Source of the DNA: Lichenostomus cassidix
Lineage: Eukaryota; Chordata; Aves; Passeriformes; Meliphagidae
Direction: 5' to 3'
DNA length: 64,000 nt
Assembly: GCA_008360975.2 (NCBI GenBank)
Contig: CM039182.1
Span: forward strand, 145,022,656 to 145,086,655
Shown: positions 1 through 60,176 of the stretch, piece after piece
How the letters are laid out: every line of letters starts with the position of its first letter
How positions within the stretch are numbered: position 1 is the stretch's first letter
Notes under the pieces: generated by a model
Seen by the model: only the letters and a program-made list of their open reading frames with translations
Told to the model about the DNA's origin: nothing
Database searches by the model: none
Made by a program: the position numbers and the translations under genes

Positions 1-320
1 TGTGTGTCCCCATGGTACATTACATGCAGCACTTCCCAGTGGCAGTAAATGTTCTGGCTTAATCAAAAAGATCACATTTCTTTCTATCACTACCTGCCCA
101 GAGAAGCTAGAATAACTTTTGGCCAAGGAATACATTAGTTTAAATCTTAGATTTCAAAATGAAATTACACGAAGTCTTGCAGATATGATTCATATGTCCC
201 CCATTACTTTCAATCTCTTCCTTTTTCAACTTCTAACTTGAATTTGTGTGAGAGCTGCAGTGCTGTCGGTAGTGCTAGCACAGGTCAGAGGCTCAGCAGG
301 GGCAGGCATGGCATCCAGGC

Positions 321-4000: not shown

Positions 4001-6869
4001 TGCCATCTCATGCCACCTCAGCTGCCACAAGGCATTTGTGGGATAACACTTGCAATACAGACCTTCTTCATGATGTTTTCCTGTTGCCTGGTAGTAGCAC
4101 TGAAGGAATTGCAGCCCACTGGACAGACACTTCCAGATGGTGGTGGCCACAATCTCCTTTCCTTTGACATGTTCCAAACATCCCTTTTCTTCTTAAAAAG
4201 TAGTAAGATCTTAGCACTGTCACTACTGTTGCTGTCACTTTCTAGTAGCAGCAACAAAACATGGATTGTTTCAGTCACTCAGCTTCCATTTTTCATCTCC
4301 TCTTTCCTTCCTTTCTCTGCTATTCCTGTGCTTTGTTTTCTGCTTTCTTAGAGATTCAGCGGGAAACTATGCTGGAGTAACAACTGCCCCTCAGAAATAC
4401 TCCAAGACTGTAGCTCTGTTTCTTGCAGGACATGGAGGGAGAAGTCTGTCAAGGGGGTGGAAAGTGAGGAAGTCCAAGCAAAAGCAGGAGGGTGATACAA
4501 CCCTGATGGATTGGAAGAAAGAATGAGCTCAAGGAAAGAGTGTGAAGGCAGAACAAGGGGAAATGATAAGAGATAAGAGCATGAATATGGGCAGGAAGAA
4601 GCAACACAAGGTCTTCAAGACAGAATTAGAGATATGATGAGAAGAGTTAAGGACTGTCAGTAAATAGATACACAATCTGAATGGTAATGGATCAGGAGCT
4701 TTAGCTGCAGCACCGTGAATGTTAAGGAGAGGAGGAAAAGAGGCAGCAAAGAGTTTGCAGCAATCCAGTTAGCCAGAAGGGACCTTGACTCAGCTGTTCA
4801 GGCCTCAGAATCTCACTGGAACAAGGTGGGATGATCATGAGAACAGGCTTTCTTGGGGAATTCATGAGCTTTTCTAGATGGAAATAGCATAGAGAAACCT
4901 TTGCACAGCAGATTTATGTCACCGCTGGCTTTGCTTCTAGCTGGAAATTCAAGGCAAAGTGAAAATAAGTATTTATTTTCCTCCAGCAATCCTCAATCAT
5001 TGAAATATTGAGTGAGTCTGTGAGTTTGGTTTAATCAATACTGCTCTGGTCAAACTTGTCACTTATAGACAAAAATGCAAGTATGCCAAAGAGAAAACAA
5101 GACTAGAAAAAATAACACTATTGACAATGACCTTTGAGCAAAAGTGGATTTTGTTTGTTACACTCATATATCTGAAACCTCCTGGATCCAAGTGCACAGC
5201 AGCAGAGTACACAGTAAGGAGTTTGAATAAATGACTTGGTTTGTCAGAAGTTCAGAGCACTGACTTCCCATGAAAGCAGTGGAAACATCAAGTACCAAGT
5301 TTCTTCCAAAACAAATTAATTAGTTGTGACACTTTTTTTGGTCCTATGTTGTTGACATGTCTTCTGTGACATTGTGGACTTTCTGGCTTGGTTTCCTAGT
5401 AGAGAAACAGTCAGTGACCACAAGTCTGGTGTGTTCCAAGTGTTTTGTCACGGGATCTTGGAACAAAATGGCCCAAAACCATGCATAATTTTCTTCTTTT
5501 TTTATGCTGAGTGGAATAAACTTAAGAAAAAAGAAATCCTCTGTTTATTCATGGAGCTTATTCTAAACAGAAAAAGCACCGAAGGATATCTAGTGTAGCT
5601 GAAACTAATTAAAATGCAGTGTATCTTTCCGAGACTAAACAGTGGCTCATATTAAAAAGAGATAGTCTTAAACATTTTGTGAAACCCTACTGTCTGCTGA
5701 TACTTTCTCTGAGTGACATGGTAATACTGAACTCTGAGCATGTGACTCTGACAAAGTCAGCATAGGCTTTCTTTTTGTTTGTTTTTTTAATGTTGAATAG
5801 CTCCATTTTGGCTAAAAGAACCAAATCTGAGAGATGGAGAAATACTGTTTACCAGCACGATAACCTTGTGTGGCAGCAGACTCATGATAAATACGCTATA
5901 GATCTGGAAGTTCAGGCTGATACATAGTCTGGACCAAAGGGTTCTCTCGCAGTGTGATGATCTATTGTATTGCCCAGCCAACTGGAGTGGCATTAAAATG
6001 AATTATACCAAGCTCCTGGTTTGGAAATTGTCTAGTCCATTATGTTTTAAGTACAAATTTCTTAAAGGGCAGGAGGAACCTTGGAGAGAGCGAATGAATT
6101 GGAAACAAATTGTAACCATGACATTCTGCCCTCTTTTCTCTCCTCTCCTTGCCATTTTCGGCAATTAGGGCATTACTTCCTCTTTTCTGTCAAGAACTGG
6201 TAGGGTTTGAAAAGGGCTTTTCAGTCATTTGCCTTGTTGTGATTTTCAGAAAAGGAATAAAAGAATTGTTTATCCTTCCCTGCCTGCACACCTATGTCTG
6301 TGCTTCCTTTGTCCCGAAACATATCCTTTTCTTGTTTTCTGAAGAGGTTTCATAAAGTCAGCATAAGAGATGTGCCAATGGGTTGCCTTAGTAGTAAAAT
6401 CCTTAGTATTTTACTACTCTTTCATGATGCCACAAACCGTGATGTGCTGTATTGTTCAAGCAGGCTCTATGTTCACAAATATCTGTTTATTCATAATAAT
6501 CACATTTCTGCATGTTCTTGTTCTTCCAGCTGACTCGTGTGCACAAAAGTCTCCAAGTTGTTGAATTAATTCTCAGGTTACTAAGCAAAGTAATTTTGTT
6601 TTCTCTTCTTTTCTTTCAATCTATGCTAATTTTAAATATCCTGCTGATTAGCTTGTACACTGTCAATTATATAGCTGCCACAGCTTCTGTACTTCTGCTG
6701 TAACTAGAAAAGTTTTCAGTACCACTATAAACATTCAAGGTGTATTCTCTGGTAATAGCTCATGCTTGCATGATTTCAGATAGATTGTCTTTCAGAAAGA
6801 CAGACTGATTTTGGCTTATCCAAGATATCCAGCAGGAAAATGCAATTTTGATCCATTGCAGCCTATCTA
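1001..6869. other. Unique DNA, no gene seen
   Basis: Apart from the short TATG repeat I see only unique, moderately AT-rich sequence. All open frames are under 115 codons, overlap on both strands, and show no family motif or plausible exon structure. Confidence 0.6.
1441..1460. repeat. (TATG)5 microsatellite
   Basis: Five copies of tatg directly followed by catg. It is short and isolated. Confidence 0.85.
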
Positions 6870-7925
6870 ACCCTGCAAACCCTGATTGTTCTGACACAGA
6901 GAACACCTACAGGTCTGAGTGCCACTGTGTGAGTTCAGCAATTCACAGCATTGTGTGGCTGCCATCAGCCTCTTCATCTTCCCCTCACCTTTATTTGGGA
7001 ACTGAGCTCTTACAAGCACTCACTTTGCATTTTACTCTCTGGCCTTCAGTAAAGTGGGCAATTCAGTGTGATACCCAGATAGATCATGTGCTAGTCAAGG
7101 GTGAGTCACCCTCAATCTTGGATGTGCAAAATTGCTTATTGAGTCTAAAGGTGGGGGAGTCTTGCATTTGTTTCATCAGAATTCATATACAGTTCGCTTT
7201 GGATGTGCTAACCAGATATCCAAGAAAGATGCTCAGGCCACCATGGCTATGATTTTGCATGAAGTCCTTAAAACTGCATTCCTAAATTTGGATTGTGATG
7301 CCTTAGTCACCTGGATCATAGCTTGCTTCTTATTTTGACAGATGCCAAAAATACTGGCACAAGTACCCTTTTCTAATAGCTCATGTTGCAGTCTGCATCA
7401 CTGGTTCTAGTCTCACATGGTTTCTGTAAACTTTTCAGTGTGCAATCCCTATGAAGAGATAATCAATTTGTGTAATTTAATAATTACAAATAAAACCATA
7501 CTTCAGGTTTTTCCAGTGTCATGAGCAGCTGCTGATGGATCTACAAGCAGAGAGTATCTGTCTATGCCTTCCCAAGGCTCTCTTGGACCCACTCAGTGAT
7601 GTTAAGCACTTTAACAGCAGGGACTTTTTGGGAACAGTCCAGCTTGCTCTGGTATTAGGAACCATTTAGCAAATGGTGATAACTAATTTAATTAGGATCA
7701 GATGCTGATGCCATTTGTGAAGATGATGCCGTATGGACACAACCCACTGTTCTTTGGCTCTGAAGCATCCTTCTCTGATTTTTGGACTGCCATGAGATAC
7801 AAGCACTAACATACTGACAGCAATGCACAATAAATGGTAGGAGTATTCGGGTATTTGTCATTCAACCAAGGTATTTTATCTACTCAGTTGTCAGATGCCA
7901 TCAAGACCAGCAGTTTTATATTTCT
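6870..7925 (-). pseudogene. Reverse-transcriptase remnant of the LINE ORF2
   Basis: This is the RT part of the same element. Blocks appear in order: the fingers motif KTAGLDGI; a KDASEPKN segment standing for 'GKDPSEPKN'; LIPEQAGLF; VLNITEW; VDPSAAAHDT, which carries the first catalytic Asp ('VDLSAAYDT'); CASIFGI where 'LAPTLFNIY' is expected (about 7336-7356); and YDPGD for the catalytic YADD, where a 3-base insertion and substitutions have destroyed the Asp pair. AHPKRT in place of 'ANPxKT' and YLGITLN close the domain. The frame changes repeatedly and includes stops, so no protein can be made. Identification rests on the ordered series of motifs, each short alone. Confidence 0.8.
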
Positions 7926-8675
7926 TGAAAGAATTCATTCCTCAAATGACTGTCTCAAAGTAATCAATGTCCTGAAATTCTTGTCACTTACTGTGCAATT
8001 TACACTTTAGGTCTAATTTACACACTTTGAGTGCTCAGAAGATTGGTCTGCACTGATAGTATGTCTACTTCTTGTCAGTCAATAGAGGCATTCTGACTAA
8101 TTGCTGATGCTTTTCTGCTGTTGTGGATTATGCCTACATGTTCTATGGAGCATGACTTCCATCTTCTGTCAGCTCAGAAAAAATATCCTCACTCAATAAA
8201 TTGCTTTACAGGTCAAACCCTGTTTGTATTTCTGACATCCTACAATTTGCACAGTTTTTAGCTTAGCTGTGGAGCTCCCTGCCAGGGGATAACAAAGATA
8301 GTTAAAGTTTCCATGGTTTTTAGAAGTCATTATACAAGTTCATGGGATCTATTGTATTACCTTCTCTCCATCTAACAATCGTGCAGATAGCAGAGGCCTG
8401 ACACAGGTTTTCATACTTATTTTTGTCAGTATGAAAAAATACTCCTGGCTGGAGACACTTTTGGATCCCAGACTAGATCCAAAGTATGCATATGACCATA
8501 CTGCTATCACACCCACGCATCATGGCTTGTGTTGAAGCACCATTTGAATCAGTATCTGTTAAGTTTGCTGCCATTGACTCACATTTGACCACAATCAAAC
8601 ATGATCATTTGATGTGGTGATGTATAGAGAGAAGAAACAGAAATGCTGTTGACACCTCTAGGTAGACTCCTGATG

Positions 8676-8960
8676 TCACCTATTGGCAATGACAACAGGA
8701 CCAAGCTTAACAATAACCCTACTATTTTTCTTACATGGTTTTTTTTTCCTCTGGTCAGGTTTATTCTTAGTGACCTGGCTGTTTATCCCCTTATATTTTG
8801 CTTGCAGACATAGCACCTGGCGGTTACATTTATCACACAGCTGGATGATGATTTCTTGTTTGACAGCTGAGGAGCCTTCAATATTTGCAGATATTATTGT
8901 CAGTGCTGGTGCTGATAAGAGGCCTTTTACAGATGACTGACAGCTTGCACATCTAGGCAC
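8676..8960 (-). pseudogene. Endonuclease-domain remnant of the LINE ORF2
   Basis: A 94-codon frame without stops holds the N-terminus of an apurinic/apyrimidinic-like endonuclease, the enzyme that nicks target DNA for LINE insertion. Residues 20-58 read LTIISANIEG, then SSAVKQEII, then QLCDKCNRQVLCLQ. This is the family pattern 'LxxISANIEGxSxxKxExIxxLCxxxxxDVLCLQETHRG'. The Asn of the first motif (residue 26) is kept. The catalytic Glu expected after LCLQ is Ala (residue 54, about 8799-8801), so the protein would be inactive. After about residue 60 the match fades into a Lys-rich tail. The Met at 8960 is only the first in frame; the true ORF2 start is not known. It belongs with the RT relic downstream at 6870-8000. 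Confidence 0.75.
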
Positions 8961-12697: not shown

Positions 12698-13795
12698 CAT
12701 AGAATCGTAGCATCATTTAAGATGGAAAAGATCCTTAAGGTCATTGAGTCCAACTGTTAACTCAGCACTGCCAAATCCAACACTAAATTATGTCCCCAAG
12801 TGCCACATCTATACATATTTTAAAATATCTCTGGGGATGGTGACTCCAGCACTTCCCCCAGTAGCCTATTCAAGTGCTTGACAAACTATGGTGAAGAAAT
12901 ATTTCCCAATATCCAATCTACACCACCCATGGCACAACTTGAGGCCATTTCCTTCTGTCTTATCACCTGTTACTTGGTACATAAAGAGGCTGATCCTGCC
13001 TGGCCACATCCTCTCCTCAGGTAGTTGTAGAGAGTGATAAGATCTCCCCAGAGCATCCTTTTCTCCACTGCCCCTCATAAGTGTTGTGCTCCAGACCCTT
13101 CACCAGCTTCTTTGCCCTTCTCTGGACCTCCTCCAGCACCTCAATGTCCTTCCTGAGCTGAGGGGACTAAAAGTGGACACAGCACTTGAGGTGTGGCCTC
13201 CCCAGTGCCCAGCACAGAGGGACAATCACTGCCCTGGTCCTGTTGGCCACACTATTGCTGCCCATGATGCCATTTGGCTTTTTGACTCTCTTTCACCTGG
13301 GCACACTTTGGCTCACGCTCGGCTGCTGTTGGCCAGCACCCCCAGGGCCTTTCCTGCTGGACAGATTTGCAGCCACTCTGCCCCCAGCCTGGAGCACTGC
13401 AGGCCTTGCTGGGACATGAGGGCAGGACCCAGGCCTTGGCTTTATTGAACCTCATACAATTGTGAGGACAATGTGTGTCCACAGACCCAGCCTGTCCAGA
13501 TCCCTCTGCAGAGCCTCCTAGACTCTAGCAGATTGACATTCCCACCCAACTTGCTGTTTGCAAATTTACGGAGAGTACACTCTCTCCCCTCACTCAGATC
13601 ATCAATAAAGATATTGAACAGGACTGGGCCCAATACTGATCCCTGGGGACACCACCAACGACCAATTGGATGCAGCACCACCACTCTCTGGGCCCAGGCA
13701 TCCAGACAGCTCTTGACTCAGCTAAGAGTGCACCTATCCAAGCTGTGGGTTTCTGACTTTTCCAGGAGAATGCCCGGGAATGCCATTTTGACACT
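12698..13795 (-). mobile_element. CR1 LINE, 5'-truncated, minus strand
   Basis: The left edge (acatagaatcgtagcatca) is the reverse complement of the CR1 3' octamer end and runs into the well-known CR1 3' region ('gtccccaagtgccacatct', 'ggcacaacttgaggccattt', 'gtagttgtagagagtgataag', 'cagacccttcaccagcttc'). The copy continues through the end of ORF2 and stops inside the RT domain near 13795, so it is about 1.1 kb of a roughly 4.5-kb element, truncated at its 5' end as is usual for CR1. ORF2 pieces are visible in several minus frames (13442-13684, 13252-13482, 12866-13078), so frameshifts separate them. CR1 normally makes no target duplication and none was seen. Confidence 0.95.
13442..13684 (-). 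pseudogene. CR1 ORF2 reverse-transcriptase fragment
   Basis: An 80-codon open frame contains [18 protein letters not shown], the RT box around the primer grip, followed by KFANSKLGG where intact CR1 has 'KFADDTKLGG' (13547-13568). One codon is lost and both catalytic Asp residues are replaced, so it is catalytically dead. Upstream sequence continues in another frame, and downstream the 'NCMRFNKAK' segment is in a third frame (within 13252-13482). The C-terminal segment VTGDKTEGNGLKLC lies at 12866-13078. The Met is not a real start. Confidence 0.9.
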
Positions 13796-16513: not shown

Positions 16514-16760
16514 GAGTCATAGAATAACTTGGGTTAGAAGGTACCATAAAGATCAGCTGGTTTGAACACCCTGCTTCAGGCAGGGACACCTTTCATTTTG
16601 CCAGGTTGCTCAAAGCCCTGTCCAGCCTGGCCTTGAACTTCCTGGGATAGGAAGTCCACAGCTTCTCTGGACAACCTGTTCCAGGGCCTCACCATCCTCA
16701 CAGGAAAGAATTCCTGCCTAATATCTGTCACTTCATTCTCCTACATGGTCTTCTGCAGAA
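16514..16760 (-). mobile_element. CR1 3' fragment, minus strand
   Basis: The left edge agtcatagaataacttgggtt is a CR1 3' end in reverse. The body follows the CR1 form 'caggttgctcaaagccc..tccagcctggccttgaac' and 'cacagcttctctggacaacctgttccag'. After 'cctaatatct' the match jumps ahead, suggesting an internal deletion of some tens of bases, and fades near 16760. This subfamily differs from the copy at 12.7 kb. No coding part is retained. Confidence 0.92.
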
Positions 16761-19700
16761 ATTAATTTTATAGAACCAACATCCAGCATTTTATTTGTTT
16801 TAAATTTATCTGCCATGAAGTTGCCTTTCACTCCTCTCCTTAGTGGTTTCCCCCCTTCTACTATGAGACAGAGTGAGTAATAAGAAACCATTCAGTTTGT
16901 GCTGGTTTAAGACTTGTCATCCTGTGCTTTATGACTTAGAATCGGTCTTGCTGGGAAAAGAAGCCACTGGGAACAGAGACTTATTCTGTGTTCATACTGA
17001 CAGCAGGATAGACAGGTGTCATCTCATGATGACATTTAAAGGTGGACGAGTCCCATGAGTGAGGGAGTTCAGTCTGGTGTAATCAATGTCAACCCTGATG
17101 AAGACTATTTTTGTCAATTTTATTTATTCCTTTGAGACATTGCTTTAAAATAACAGGAAGACTGTAATTTAAATGGTTATGGGGCGTGGGTGGTTGAATT
17201 ATTCATTCTTTATAGAGGGCAGACTCTCCATCAAAATCCAAAAGTGGCTGACCTGCAATATCCTCCCTCTTCCCTTCCCACCTGCTGTGCCCTGAAACAT
17301 GGAAAGAATACCATGGCTCCTTCAGTTAATCTGCAGGGATGGAAAATTAGCATGTTTCGCTTTCATTTAAGGAAGATGCTTCACCCCTGAGACTTTTGCA
17401 GAGACACCTTAATTGGTCATCTTTCTGAGCTTTCATTTTATTAAGAAACAATGAGCAGCACTTTGCAGACAGCCTATGTAAAATATGCTGAAGTTTATTG
17501 TACCATGGATCTCTAAACCACTGAAATAAAGACCTGTGTGGGCAATTTGCAATAGCTTCTACTATTTAAATGCAAATGTGCATAGAGAGCTTTGTTCTAG
17601 ATATCAGTTATTTGATACACCTTGGCTTTTGTCCCTGCCCTTAAATACCTGATATTCCTTCCGAGATGCACATTCTTTAAAAAAACTAAAAGACAGCAAA
17701 ACCCCCAAAACAACAAAAAACACATCTGAAAAAAACTAAGCACCAACCCAACCCACTCCCCAGCTTGTATATCTAATGCCAATATTCCCTGTGCAGCATC
17801 TGTAAAAATGTGCTTCATGCAGGCTGGTCCCTCACCTTATCCAAATGGCCCTTAGGCCACCAGCTGCTGCTGGAGCAGAGAGGCACATATAGGGGAGTAG
17901 ACTGGCCATGGCATGCCAAATGCATTTGCCACAGCAGCAGCCCTCTTTATTTCTCTGTCTCTTCCTCTAGAAATCTTGAATGTGTTTAAATATTAAAGCT
18001 GGACACATCTCAGTGTATCCCCTGTGGAGTCTTTCATTGAAAATATCCGAAATCCAATAAAATCAGCTGGTCCTTTTGATGTTTGTAAAGTGGTTGCTCA
18101 CTGAAGTGGCTGGGCTGGGAGTCCAATATCAGACTTCCATAAAGATATCAACAGAGTATTTCCAATAGTGCTGATAATTGTAATCTCCTTGCTGGCTATT
18201 CCATTCTGCTCACTAGCATAACCTTTATTTTTTTTAAAAAAAGGGTATTTAGTGGGATTTGTTTGCTTTATTTCTACCCTCAGTGTAGCAATGATTTTCT
18301 TTGTGTCTTAGAGAAATCCCTTAACCAAAAAATACCTTGAGCTTACAGAAATCTATTCACTTCCTAAGCAAAACTGTTGACAGTACTCTCTAAATCAGAA
18401 TTGTTTCACCTGTACTAAGAAGGGAAAGTGGTTGCTGTGTCAACAGGGTGAAAACCCAGCAATTCTAACATTTAGGATTTTTTCCCTTAATTATGCTGCT
18501 CTACTTGCATCTCCCTATAAAAACAAATGGAGGACGACAGACTTCCAGGTTCTTTTCATTATCACCAACCGAAGCACAGCTGGGAAGAACAGCAACTTCC
18601 AAACCCTTTAGGATTAAGTTAACATGCAAAATAAGCTTTTGTGCTTTGCTTTACAAAGCAAATCCTTTCCATTCTCTCAAATCAAGACTGGTGAAATATG
18701 AGGACAAATGCCCAGCTCCTGCAGAAATATTTATACTTGCACCTAATTTTCACATCAGGCACCAGTGCTATTCATGAAGATTAAAAATGGAAGTCAGAAG
18801 ACAATAGAGGTTCTCAGCCAAATGAGTATTGTCTGTCAGAAAGAACAGACTCTTTCAGCAGCCACCACATTAACCATAGGCCTAAGTCAGTTTTCCATTG
18901 AGTCGCAGGCGCTTTTCCAATTTCCTGATACATACTATTGCCTTGGCAAGGAGTAAATGGGATCTAGTGCCAGGACACTTGTATCTAGAGCATACTTTGA
19001 CTCCTTGCTGTGTTTGCAGAAATTCCAGGTACACATCATTAATCACAAAGCCTGTCCAATTCCTGAATTATTTAATACAATATTGGAGCGGTTTTGAATT
19101 ATTTAAAGCAATATGCGAAAGGTTCTCTGTGATATACATGCAGAGATTATTAAGAACCTTGCTAAACAGACTTAAATTGCCAGAATCTAATATCAGCTCC
19201 CCATGTTCCATAGCCCTAACTCGAGGACGGAAAGAAACAAAATGCTTCTGTCCAACAGCCTCCTCCTTTACCCTAAAATTTATTGTAATTGTTAGAAATA
19301 AGTGAAATGGTTTTAATCTATCTCATTGGAAGCTGCTCAAAACATGACAGGCAAAAATGTCCAGCACATTGTAATTTGGTATTAGTGGAGAATGGAAAAG
19401 CCAGGAGGTTTATCTGATCCTCCTGAACCTGTGAATCAGGCATAGATACAACATGGGAACAGATTGTCCTCCAAAGTGCCTTGATTTTTTTTTTTTTTTT
19501 TTGGCTTGTTTGTTTTGTTTTTGGAGACCAGGAATGAAAGAGTAACTTCTATAATGAAACTGGTAGTTCCTCAAGATCCATTATCAGTGAAAAACATTAC
19601 CTAGGTTTATTTGAGAAGTTCATTCAGCTCCTTAGTCGTACCCAGGACAAATTGACCACAGACAGATCAGTGCCAAGGGTGTTCTAGGAACCAAACAGCA

Positions 19701-36130: not shown

Positions 36131-36594
36131 ACACTGTATTCTGTAGTTCTTTTCTCTTTTTCTCCTTTTCTCCCACTCCTTTCCTTCTACCCCTGTTCAT
36201 GCTTTCTTCCTCCCACTAGGTCTTCTCCTTCTTCCCCTCTGCTGCTGTCTTCTTTCTTGTATGTGAAAACTCAGAATTCCCTTCCCTTCCCTTCCCTTCC
36301 CTTCCCTTCCCTTCCCTTCCCTTCCCTTCCCTTCCCTTCCCTTCCCTTCCCTTCCCTTCCCTTCCCTTCCCTTCCTTCCCTTTCCCTTCCTTCCTTCCCT
36401 TCCCTTCCTTCCCTTCCCTTCCTTCCTTCCTTCCTTCCCTTCCCTTCCTTCCTTCCCTTCCCTTCCTTCCTTCCTTCCCTTCCCTTCCTTCCTTCCCTTC
36501 CTTCCCTTCCTTCCTTCCCTTCCCTTCCCTTCCCTTCCCTTCCCTTCCCTTCCCTTCCCTTCCCTTCCCTTCCCTTCCCTTCTTCCCTTCCCAT
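36131..36594. repeat. Long polypyrimidine tract with (TTCCC)n core
   Basis: The tract is almost purely T and C on the plus strand. A mixed T/C-rich lead-in (36145-36260) precedes the tandem core (36276-36594). The core starts and ends with pure 5-bp ttccc units. Between about 36374 and 36515 it alternates 4-bp ttcc and 5-bp ttccc units, often as two 4s then two 5s (about 18 bp). The long open frames here (Pro/Ser/Leu-rich on plus, Gly/Lys/Glu/Arg-rich on minus) are translations of the repeat, not genes. Confidence 0.97.
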
Positions 36595-59070: not shown

Positions 59071-59246
59071 TACGTGATTCACAAGTGCCCTAAATCATGT
59101 TGTTTAAGTAGTCTCAATTTCCTTCAGCATACTATAACTCTAATTATCTTCAGAAGTGCATGACAATGACTCCAATGCTTAGAGAAGACTGTTCACATGA
59201 TTTACCTCCACATAAGGTTTTAAGCATTTTGCTAGCTTCAGGTCTT

Positions 59247-59350
59247 TCTTCTTCTTCTTCTTCTTCTTCTTCTTCTTCTTCTTCTTCTTCTTCTTCTTCT
59301 TTCTTCTTCTTTCTTCTTCTTTCTTCTTCTTTCTTCTTCTTTCTTCTTCT
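59247..59350. repeat. (TTC)n/(GAA)n tract with 10-bp higher-order unit
   Basis: About 18 pure TTC units run from 59247 to about 59300. Then the decamer ttcttcttct repeats in exact register to 59350 (about six copies from 59291). A T7 run and ccag follow. The minus strand is a pure GAA/GAAA purine tract. The Glu/Lys/Arg-rich and Ser/Phe-rich open frames here are only translations of the repeat. Confidence 0.97.
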
Positions 59351-60176
59351 TTTTTTCCAGGTAAATCTACAGTCAAAATTGGCACCCACAGAGAAACCCA
59401 GCCAATGTGTTACACTTCTGTCACTGAAAAAGCTATACACTCTCCCCATTTCACTATTGTGAACCAAATTTTTCTTAAGTTTAATTTTTTTTTTTTTTCT
59501 GTTTCAGGAAGAAATACAAGAATTACATCTCTGTGGGAAGAAAGAGACAAGAATTGTTATCTGCTAGTAGAGTGCTTGGGATTTCTTGAATATATTTGTA
59601 AATAGGTCTTCACTCAGCTGGCAAGGCTGACTATAAACAGAACTCCTCAAAGATTCTTTCAAACATAGTGTCTTATTTTCACATAAGAGAAGGACCTGAC
59701 ATATAAATGCCTCTCAAGCAGAGTTCTTCATTCTGGTGACTTCTATAGAAATAGCTTCCAAATCCTATCTCCACACGACAAAGGCCTTTGGAAAAGAAGT
59801 GTGAAAACTGGCATGTTTTGGGAAAGGCAGAGGTTACCTCATGGCTCAAAGCAGAGGTAGCATGGATCACTGAGTGAGACAATGAACTGAGACTGCAGAG
59901 CTTCTGCAGGGTGACTTGCTATGTTCACCTTTCTCCTGTTGTGTACTTAGATTAAAATTGCATTGAGGCAGAGACTTTTCCTTAGTAAGCATTTCTATAT
60001 CACCTAATACAACATTGTTCCCTATCTTAACAGACACTTCTGCATGCACTAAACATAAAATACAATAAAACAAATAAATAAAGGAGAGTAAGTCACAGCT
60101 CTCCTACCTGCTTTTTTAAATAATTTTTCTGCCATTGTCAGCTCTCTCTACTGTGTACCTTTTCTGCAGGTAAATA

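Follow-up and report, generated by a model that had tools for sequence, protein, structure and literature searches.

A badly decayed, almost full-length non-CR1 LINE fossil in CR1-bearing DNA, for which Vingi is the best label

Can a scatter of short motifs, in reading frames that are all broken, be the remains of a single retrotransposon, and if so, of which kind? The question arises in a window of 64,000 nucleotides, the whole stretch of DNA analyzed here, where the original prediction read eight motifs of a LINE ORF2 from the minus strand within 6870..8960 and assigned them to the I/Jockey type, as the superfamily of such LINEs is named, perhaps to something Nimb-like. Stops occur in all three minus frames across the motif region. 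The seven intact motif strings are nonetheless present in minus frames, once each and in the claimed order: ISANIEG starting at 8894 with VLCLQ ending at 8802 (counted as one motif), KTAGLDGI at 7917-7894, LIPEQAGLF at 7658-7632, VLNITEW at 7609-7589, VDPSAAAHDT at 7544-7515, YLGITL at 7081-7064, and LNSHSGTQT at 6938-6912. The eighth, a damaged YADD, reads Y-D-P-G-D-stop at 7320-7303 and is placed by collinear alignment only.

As had been anticipated, ordinary searches pass over this sequence. Pfam, run on a stitched reading and on one frame, returned no endonuclease or reverse transcriptase family, its only match being an unrelated, sub-threshold DUF7385 (E 0.015); a phmmer search of 3716 candidates, with the same stitched reading as query, gave no match at E<=10. 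Because both approaches came back empty, relatives were fetched with a LINE probe sequence, which matched at least 1484 proteins at E<=0.001 among 7985 candidates; the best 120 of the 1484 were used. A second search, with the Anolis protein P0032 as query, gave at least 1029 matches, and the best 120 of these contributed 11 new proteins, making a set of 131 listed proteins from both searches together. Reverse transcriptase is found in all of the 131 listed relatives, endonuclease in most, and RNase H in none, and the six that were rescanned all contain endonuclease and reverse transcriptase families only. Their named hosts include Anolis, Branchiostoma, sea urchins, a starfish, fish, psyllids, aphids, moths, and porcelain crabs; the protein P0093 carries the name of a cyanobacterium, a label that we take for contamination.

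A profile of 984 aa was built from 73 diverse, intact relatives and applied with our own frameshift-aware local aligner. An initial setting, with gaps that were too cheap and a fixed background, was dropped: GC-rich stretches near 12.7 kb and at 53-55 kb equalled the target, and the minus-strand score exceeded the plus-strand score for only 7 of 120 proteins. The final settings used stricter gaps and a background taken from local composition.

At the middle setting, one collinear minus-strand match runs from 8933 to about 6995 (profile aa 2-750) and scores about 176 bits. Against 176.5 bits, 200 dinucleotide shuffles averaged 23.3 and reached at most 33.3; a repeat on a larger stretch gave 176.2 bits versus a shuffle maximum of 31.2, with 23.2 for the reversed profile and 21.8 for the plus strand. 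The match thus stands far above shuffled sequence, where the best of 200 shuffles reaches 31-33 bits. When the window was divided into 70 tiles, the three best all overlapped the fossil, and the site scored 176.8 bits versus 56.2 and 48.8 for the next two, minus-strand tiles that take in the same CR1 copy. At the loosest setting (5.5, 0.2, 4.5), the match extends to 6432 (aa 954) and rises to 231.7 bits, compared with a mean of 39.7 over 200 shuffles, 33.5 for the reversed profile, and 30.2 for the plus strand; since this setting also lifts the shuffles to as much as 62.8 and other window tiles to as much as 76.8, our conclusions rest on the stricter ones.

Single relatives used in place of the profile tell a similar story. 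Under the strict setting, 15 of 16 exceeded the best of 40 shuffles, the exception being P0116 (21.1 bits versus a shuffle maximum of 24.3). The fossil was the top place in the window for 12 of the 16, with one tie, while the CR1-bearing tile at 10-14 kb outscored it for 3. Taken as a whole, the minus-strand match covers 6432..8933 and extends over aa 2-954 of the 984 in the profile, with many stops, frameshifts, and deletions, and it has the order of an APE-type non-LTR element: endonuclease and then reverse transcriptase in one direction, followed by a YLG block and a zinc knuckle. The fossil of a non-CR1 LINE is real, almost full-length, and badly decayed. A protein-level, frameshift-aware search thus recovers an element that Pfam and ordinary protein searches miss.

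Might this be a copy of CR1 or L2 whose motifs were misread through wishful reading? CR1 is the dominant LINE of birds, it is likewise an APE-type LINE, and two copies lie close by. With a near-full CR1 ORF2 as probe, the 3' half of a CR1 ORF2 was found at 12786-13774 (minus strand, 256.9 bits) and a short CR1 3' fragment at 16599-16831 (minus strand, 52.5 bits). At the fossil, in contrast, the same probe scores 18.0 bits, less than the average shuffle (means 19.4 and 19.9), and 75 of 100 and 83 of 100 shuffles equalled it. The L2 probe, covering the endonuclease part only, reached 18.9 bits there, as did 9 of 100 and 15 of 100 shuffles; a Rex1/Maui reverse transcriptase probe reached 20.8 and 21.1 bits, matched by 6 of 100 and 7 of 100. 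Including RTE and L1, which were also represented by their reverse transcriptase parts, the five labels range from 15.0 to 21.1 bits at the fossil, within the range of shuffles, and all are rejected. In this comparator scan the background was not adjusted by tile, and high values near 52.8 kb are read as composition artefacts for that reason. CR1 identity of the fossil is refuted, and we give the CR1-or-L2 reading almost no credence. With a collinear profile match far above shuffles and CR1 at noise, the claim of a single non-CR1 LINE ORF2 fossil of I/Jockey type stands. Just past the longer CR1 copy, at 12698, the octamer repeat of the CR1 end is present in degenerate form.

Support along the element is uneven. 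Each block was compared with 1000 shuffles and with other pieces of the window, at a strict and then a loose setting, and four blocks stand alone: the endonuclease N-terminus, the fingers and palm of the reverse transcriptase, the YLG block, and the zinc knuckle. The apurinic-type endonuclease N-terminus (8778..8933, minus strand, 52 codons, ISANIEG...VLCLQ) scores 79.2 bits at both settings, a value reached by none of 1000 shuffles and none of 790 other window pieces. The fingers/palm block with KTAGLDGI, LIPEQAGLF, VLNITEW, and VDPSAA (7527..7941, minus strand) scores 57.6 bits under the strict setting; when aa 416-565, from KTAGLDGI to VDPSAAAHDT, were taken as the unit, scores were 55.9 strict and 85.4 loose, with none of 1000 shuffles and none of 446 other pieces reaching them (best other piece, 52.8 and 58.5 bits). 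The YLGITL block (7052..7105, minus strand) scores 19.2 bits over the aligned block; in the block test it gave 19.0 bits strict, a score reached by 1 of 1000 shuffles and 9 of 1124 other pieces, and 24.8 bits loose, reached by none of either. The rest of the endonuclease and the linker (7970..8770, minus strand, aa 57-415) are fragmentary and their support is weak: scores of 18.7 to 26.6 bits were reached by 0 to 9 of 1000 shuffles, and of 454-538 pieces from elsewhere in the window 5 to 24 did as well.

Two parts fall to the level of shuffles. The part that should contain YADD (aa 566-700) scored 12.5 bits, which 777 of 1000 shuffles equalled, and 15.4 bits, which 288 equalled, and the thumb part with LNSHSGTQT scored 12.7 and 13.2 bits, equalled by 735 and 760 of 1000, its best loose alignment lying in a frame other than that of LNSHSGTQT. 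The motif observation is thus partly confirmed: six of the eight sites lie in individually supported blocks, whereas the damaged YADD and LNSHSGTQT do not rise above shuffled sequence. The interval was also drawn too short. A LINE fossil is present in it, but a C-terminal zinc-knuckle-like ORF2 end lies beyond 6870, at 6432..6546 on the minus strand (28.8 bits over the aligned block; 28.6 strict and 32.4 loose in the block test), where none of 1000 shuffles scored as high but 2 of 816 other window pieces did. This weak block sits at about the spacing seen in the relatives, with the noise-level thumb part between. Directly beyond the zinc-knuckle remnant on its 3' side, at 6390-6418, an 11-bp inverted repeat without mismatches encloses a loop of 7 bases.

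Judged by its sequence, the copy is dead, with neither intact catalytic residues nor an intact frame. At codon 8801-8799 a conserved catalytic Glu of the endonuclease, located by aligning the relative P0001 with LINE-1 ORF2p, reads Ala, and a stop falls at the position of the YADD box. Over 599 aligned codons the fossil has 19 stops, and its alignment needs 22 frameshifts; for the CR1 copy at 12.8-13.8 kb the figures are 3 stops over 326 codons, with 8 frameshifts. Both kinds of damage are thus commoner per codon in the fossil than in its neighbor. Stops yield estimates of 0.50 substitutions per site for the fossil versus 0.10 for CR1, an age contrast that is rough because 9 of the 19 stops fall in the unsupported aa 566-700; without that part, 10 stops in 478 codons give a lower estimate.

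Which clade the fossil belongs to is a separate matter. Vingi, reportedly defined by Kojima in 2011, is a compact element with a single ORF, is sister to Ingi in reverse transcriptase phylogeny, and is said to have no RNase H in its ORF2; Vingi-1_EE, Vingi-2_Acar, and the human X12_LINE are examples. ORF2 of the I clade carries RNase H, while the Jockey clade is not known to carry one. Among the non-LTR clades named in Anolis, none but Vingi is known to belong to the I/Jockey superfamily, and one relative of the fossil comes from Anolis; Vingi is therefore the best label, reached by elimination through Anolis. The clades in question are CR1, L2, Penelope, L1, RTE1, R4, BovB, Vingi, RTEX, and Neptune in PMC7561263, whose table also has a row 'Other', which keeps the elimination from being watertight.

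Like Vingi, the listed relatives combine endonuclease and reverse transcriptase without RNase H and include an Anolis protein; their ORF is often about 940-1000 aa (about 2.9 kb) on contigs that are often 3.0-3.6 kb, which would fit a compact element. The fossil differs in being a single dead copy in CR1-bearing, probably bird DNA. Over the entire region the Anolis protein reaches no more than 46.6 bits, which places it 112th among the 131, and its endonuclease N-terminus is missing; the top scorers, at up to 105 bits, are unnamed and fish proteins, and ranking the relatives by score yields no clear nearest host.

An I-, Nimb-, or Jockey-clade fossil would come from the same superfamily, with similar motifs. 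Nimb and I are both known as amniote fossils, with examples in turtle, alligator, and human according to PMC9004415, and two relatives are called 'jockey-like' (P0076) and 'X-element' (P0116) by their sources. Nimb ORF2 from locust, as described in PMC3391268, carries RNase H, with zinc fingers in its ORF1. None of the 131 relatives listed has RNase H, which goes against the Nimb-like example given in the original prediction and against the I clade; its absence is compatible with Jockey. The interpretation as a non-CR1, Nimb-like LINE fossil in a bird is accordingly supported in part. We consider membership in one of these three clades unlikely, and regard it as probable that the fossil is what remains of a single non-LTR retrotransposon of the Vingi clade, now dead.

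LINEs copy by target-primed reverse transcription. The active ancestor would have been an I/Jockey-type element with endonuclease, reverse transcriptase, and a C-terminal zinc knuckle, and no RNase H. By the mechanism established for LINEs, its endonuclease would have nicked host DNA and its RNA would have been reverse-transcribed at the nick, after which the copy would have decayed for a long time through substitutions, frameshifts, and deletions until no working protein was left.

A bird host is plausible from the CR1 content and the overall look of the DNA. The fossil is probably very old and would have come down from early amniotes for the most part vertically. Such descent is plausible because traces of Vingi have been reported in human and Vingi itself in reptiles: PMC5753468 gives hedgehogs and reptiles as carriers of Vingi and classes the human X12_LINE as one, and PMC9004415 counts one pre-amniote Vingi fossil in human. 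Elements of this kind have so far been reported from reptiles, hedgehogs, and invertebrates, with faint traces in humans, and we found no report of avian Vingi in the open PMC literature. That Vingi instead reached birds or archosaurs long ago by horizontal transfer, which would leave the clade label intact, is a less probable though serious possibility. It would suit the finding that the highest scores go to unnamed and fish proteins and not to the Anolis protein, and hedgehog Vingi is called a likely horizontal transfer in PMC3183009; on the other side, the human traces predate the split of mammals and reptiles (PMC5753468 and PMC9004415), and the decay of the fossil looks heavy. In a bird host, the choice between vertical descent with losses and horizontal transfer of amniote Vingi would become directly testable at one locus, and one more LINE clade would join the short list seen in birds.

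One stretch of the fossil is unusually well kept. From 8933 to 8778, the endonuclease reads through its first 52 codons free of stops and frameshifts, and 26 of the 52 residues equal the consensus. Among 1260 indel-aware simulations in which decay was uniform, 159 ended with a total score like the real one, and in none of these was the endonuclease block preserved as well (best, 45.7 bits versus 79.1 in the real sequence). No block of up to 70 codons reached 79 bits in the 159; 17 had a longer one, the shortest of 103 codons. By density, the best block carried at least as many bits per codon as the real one in 2 of 145 simulations with a similar total. Simulations with substitutions only reached the endonuclease level in 15% of cases at a divergence of 0.2, 1.3% at 0.3, and 0.2% at 0.4; another run gave 4.6% at 0.2 and 0.3% at 0.3, and five P0001-type proteins gave 17.5% and 0%. 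Fitted in this way, the endonuclease block has about 0.1-0.2 substitutions per site versus roughly 0.3-0.6 for other blocks, whose decay is if anything understated because gaps were chosen to fit.

The indel-aware simulations may thus hint at constraint on the endonuclease block, the substitution-only measures being milder, in a test that is biased because the locus was originally picked for its clear endonuclease block. Selection could explain the preservation, and so could patching by a younger copy or chance together with ascertainment, and we treat it as a lead only; that the host took over 8933-8778 as a conserved element seems doubtful.

Simple repeats occur elsewhere in the window. A 17-bp tandem repeat of 4.8 copies lies at 320-401, a (TTCCC)n pentamer array of 67 copies at 36277-36592, and a (TTC)n array at 59243-59351. 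The last is probably the cause of a side match of the profile, 39.7 bits at 59216-59338 on the minus strand.
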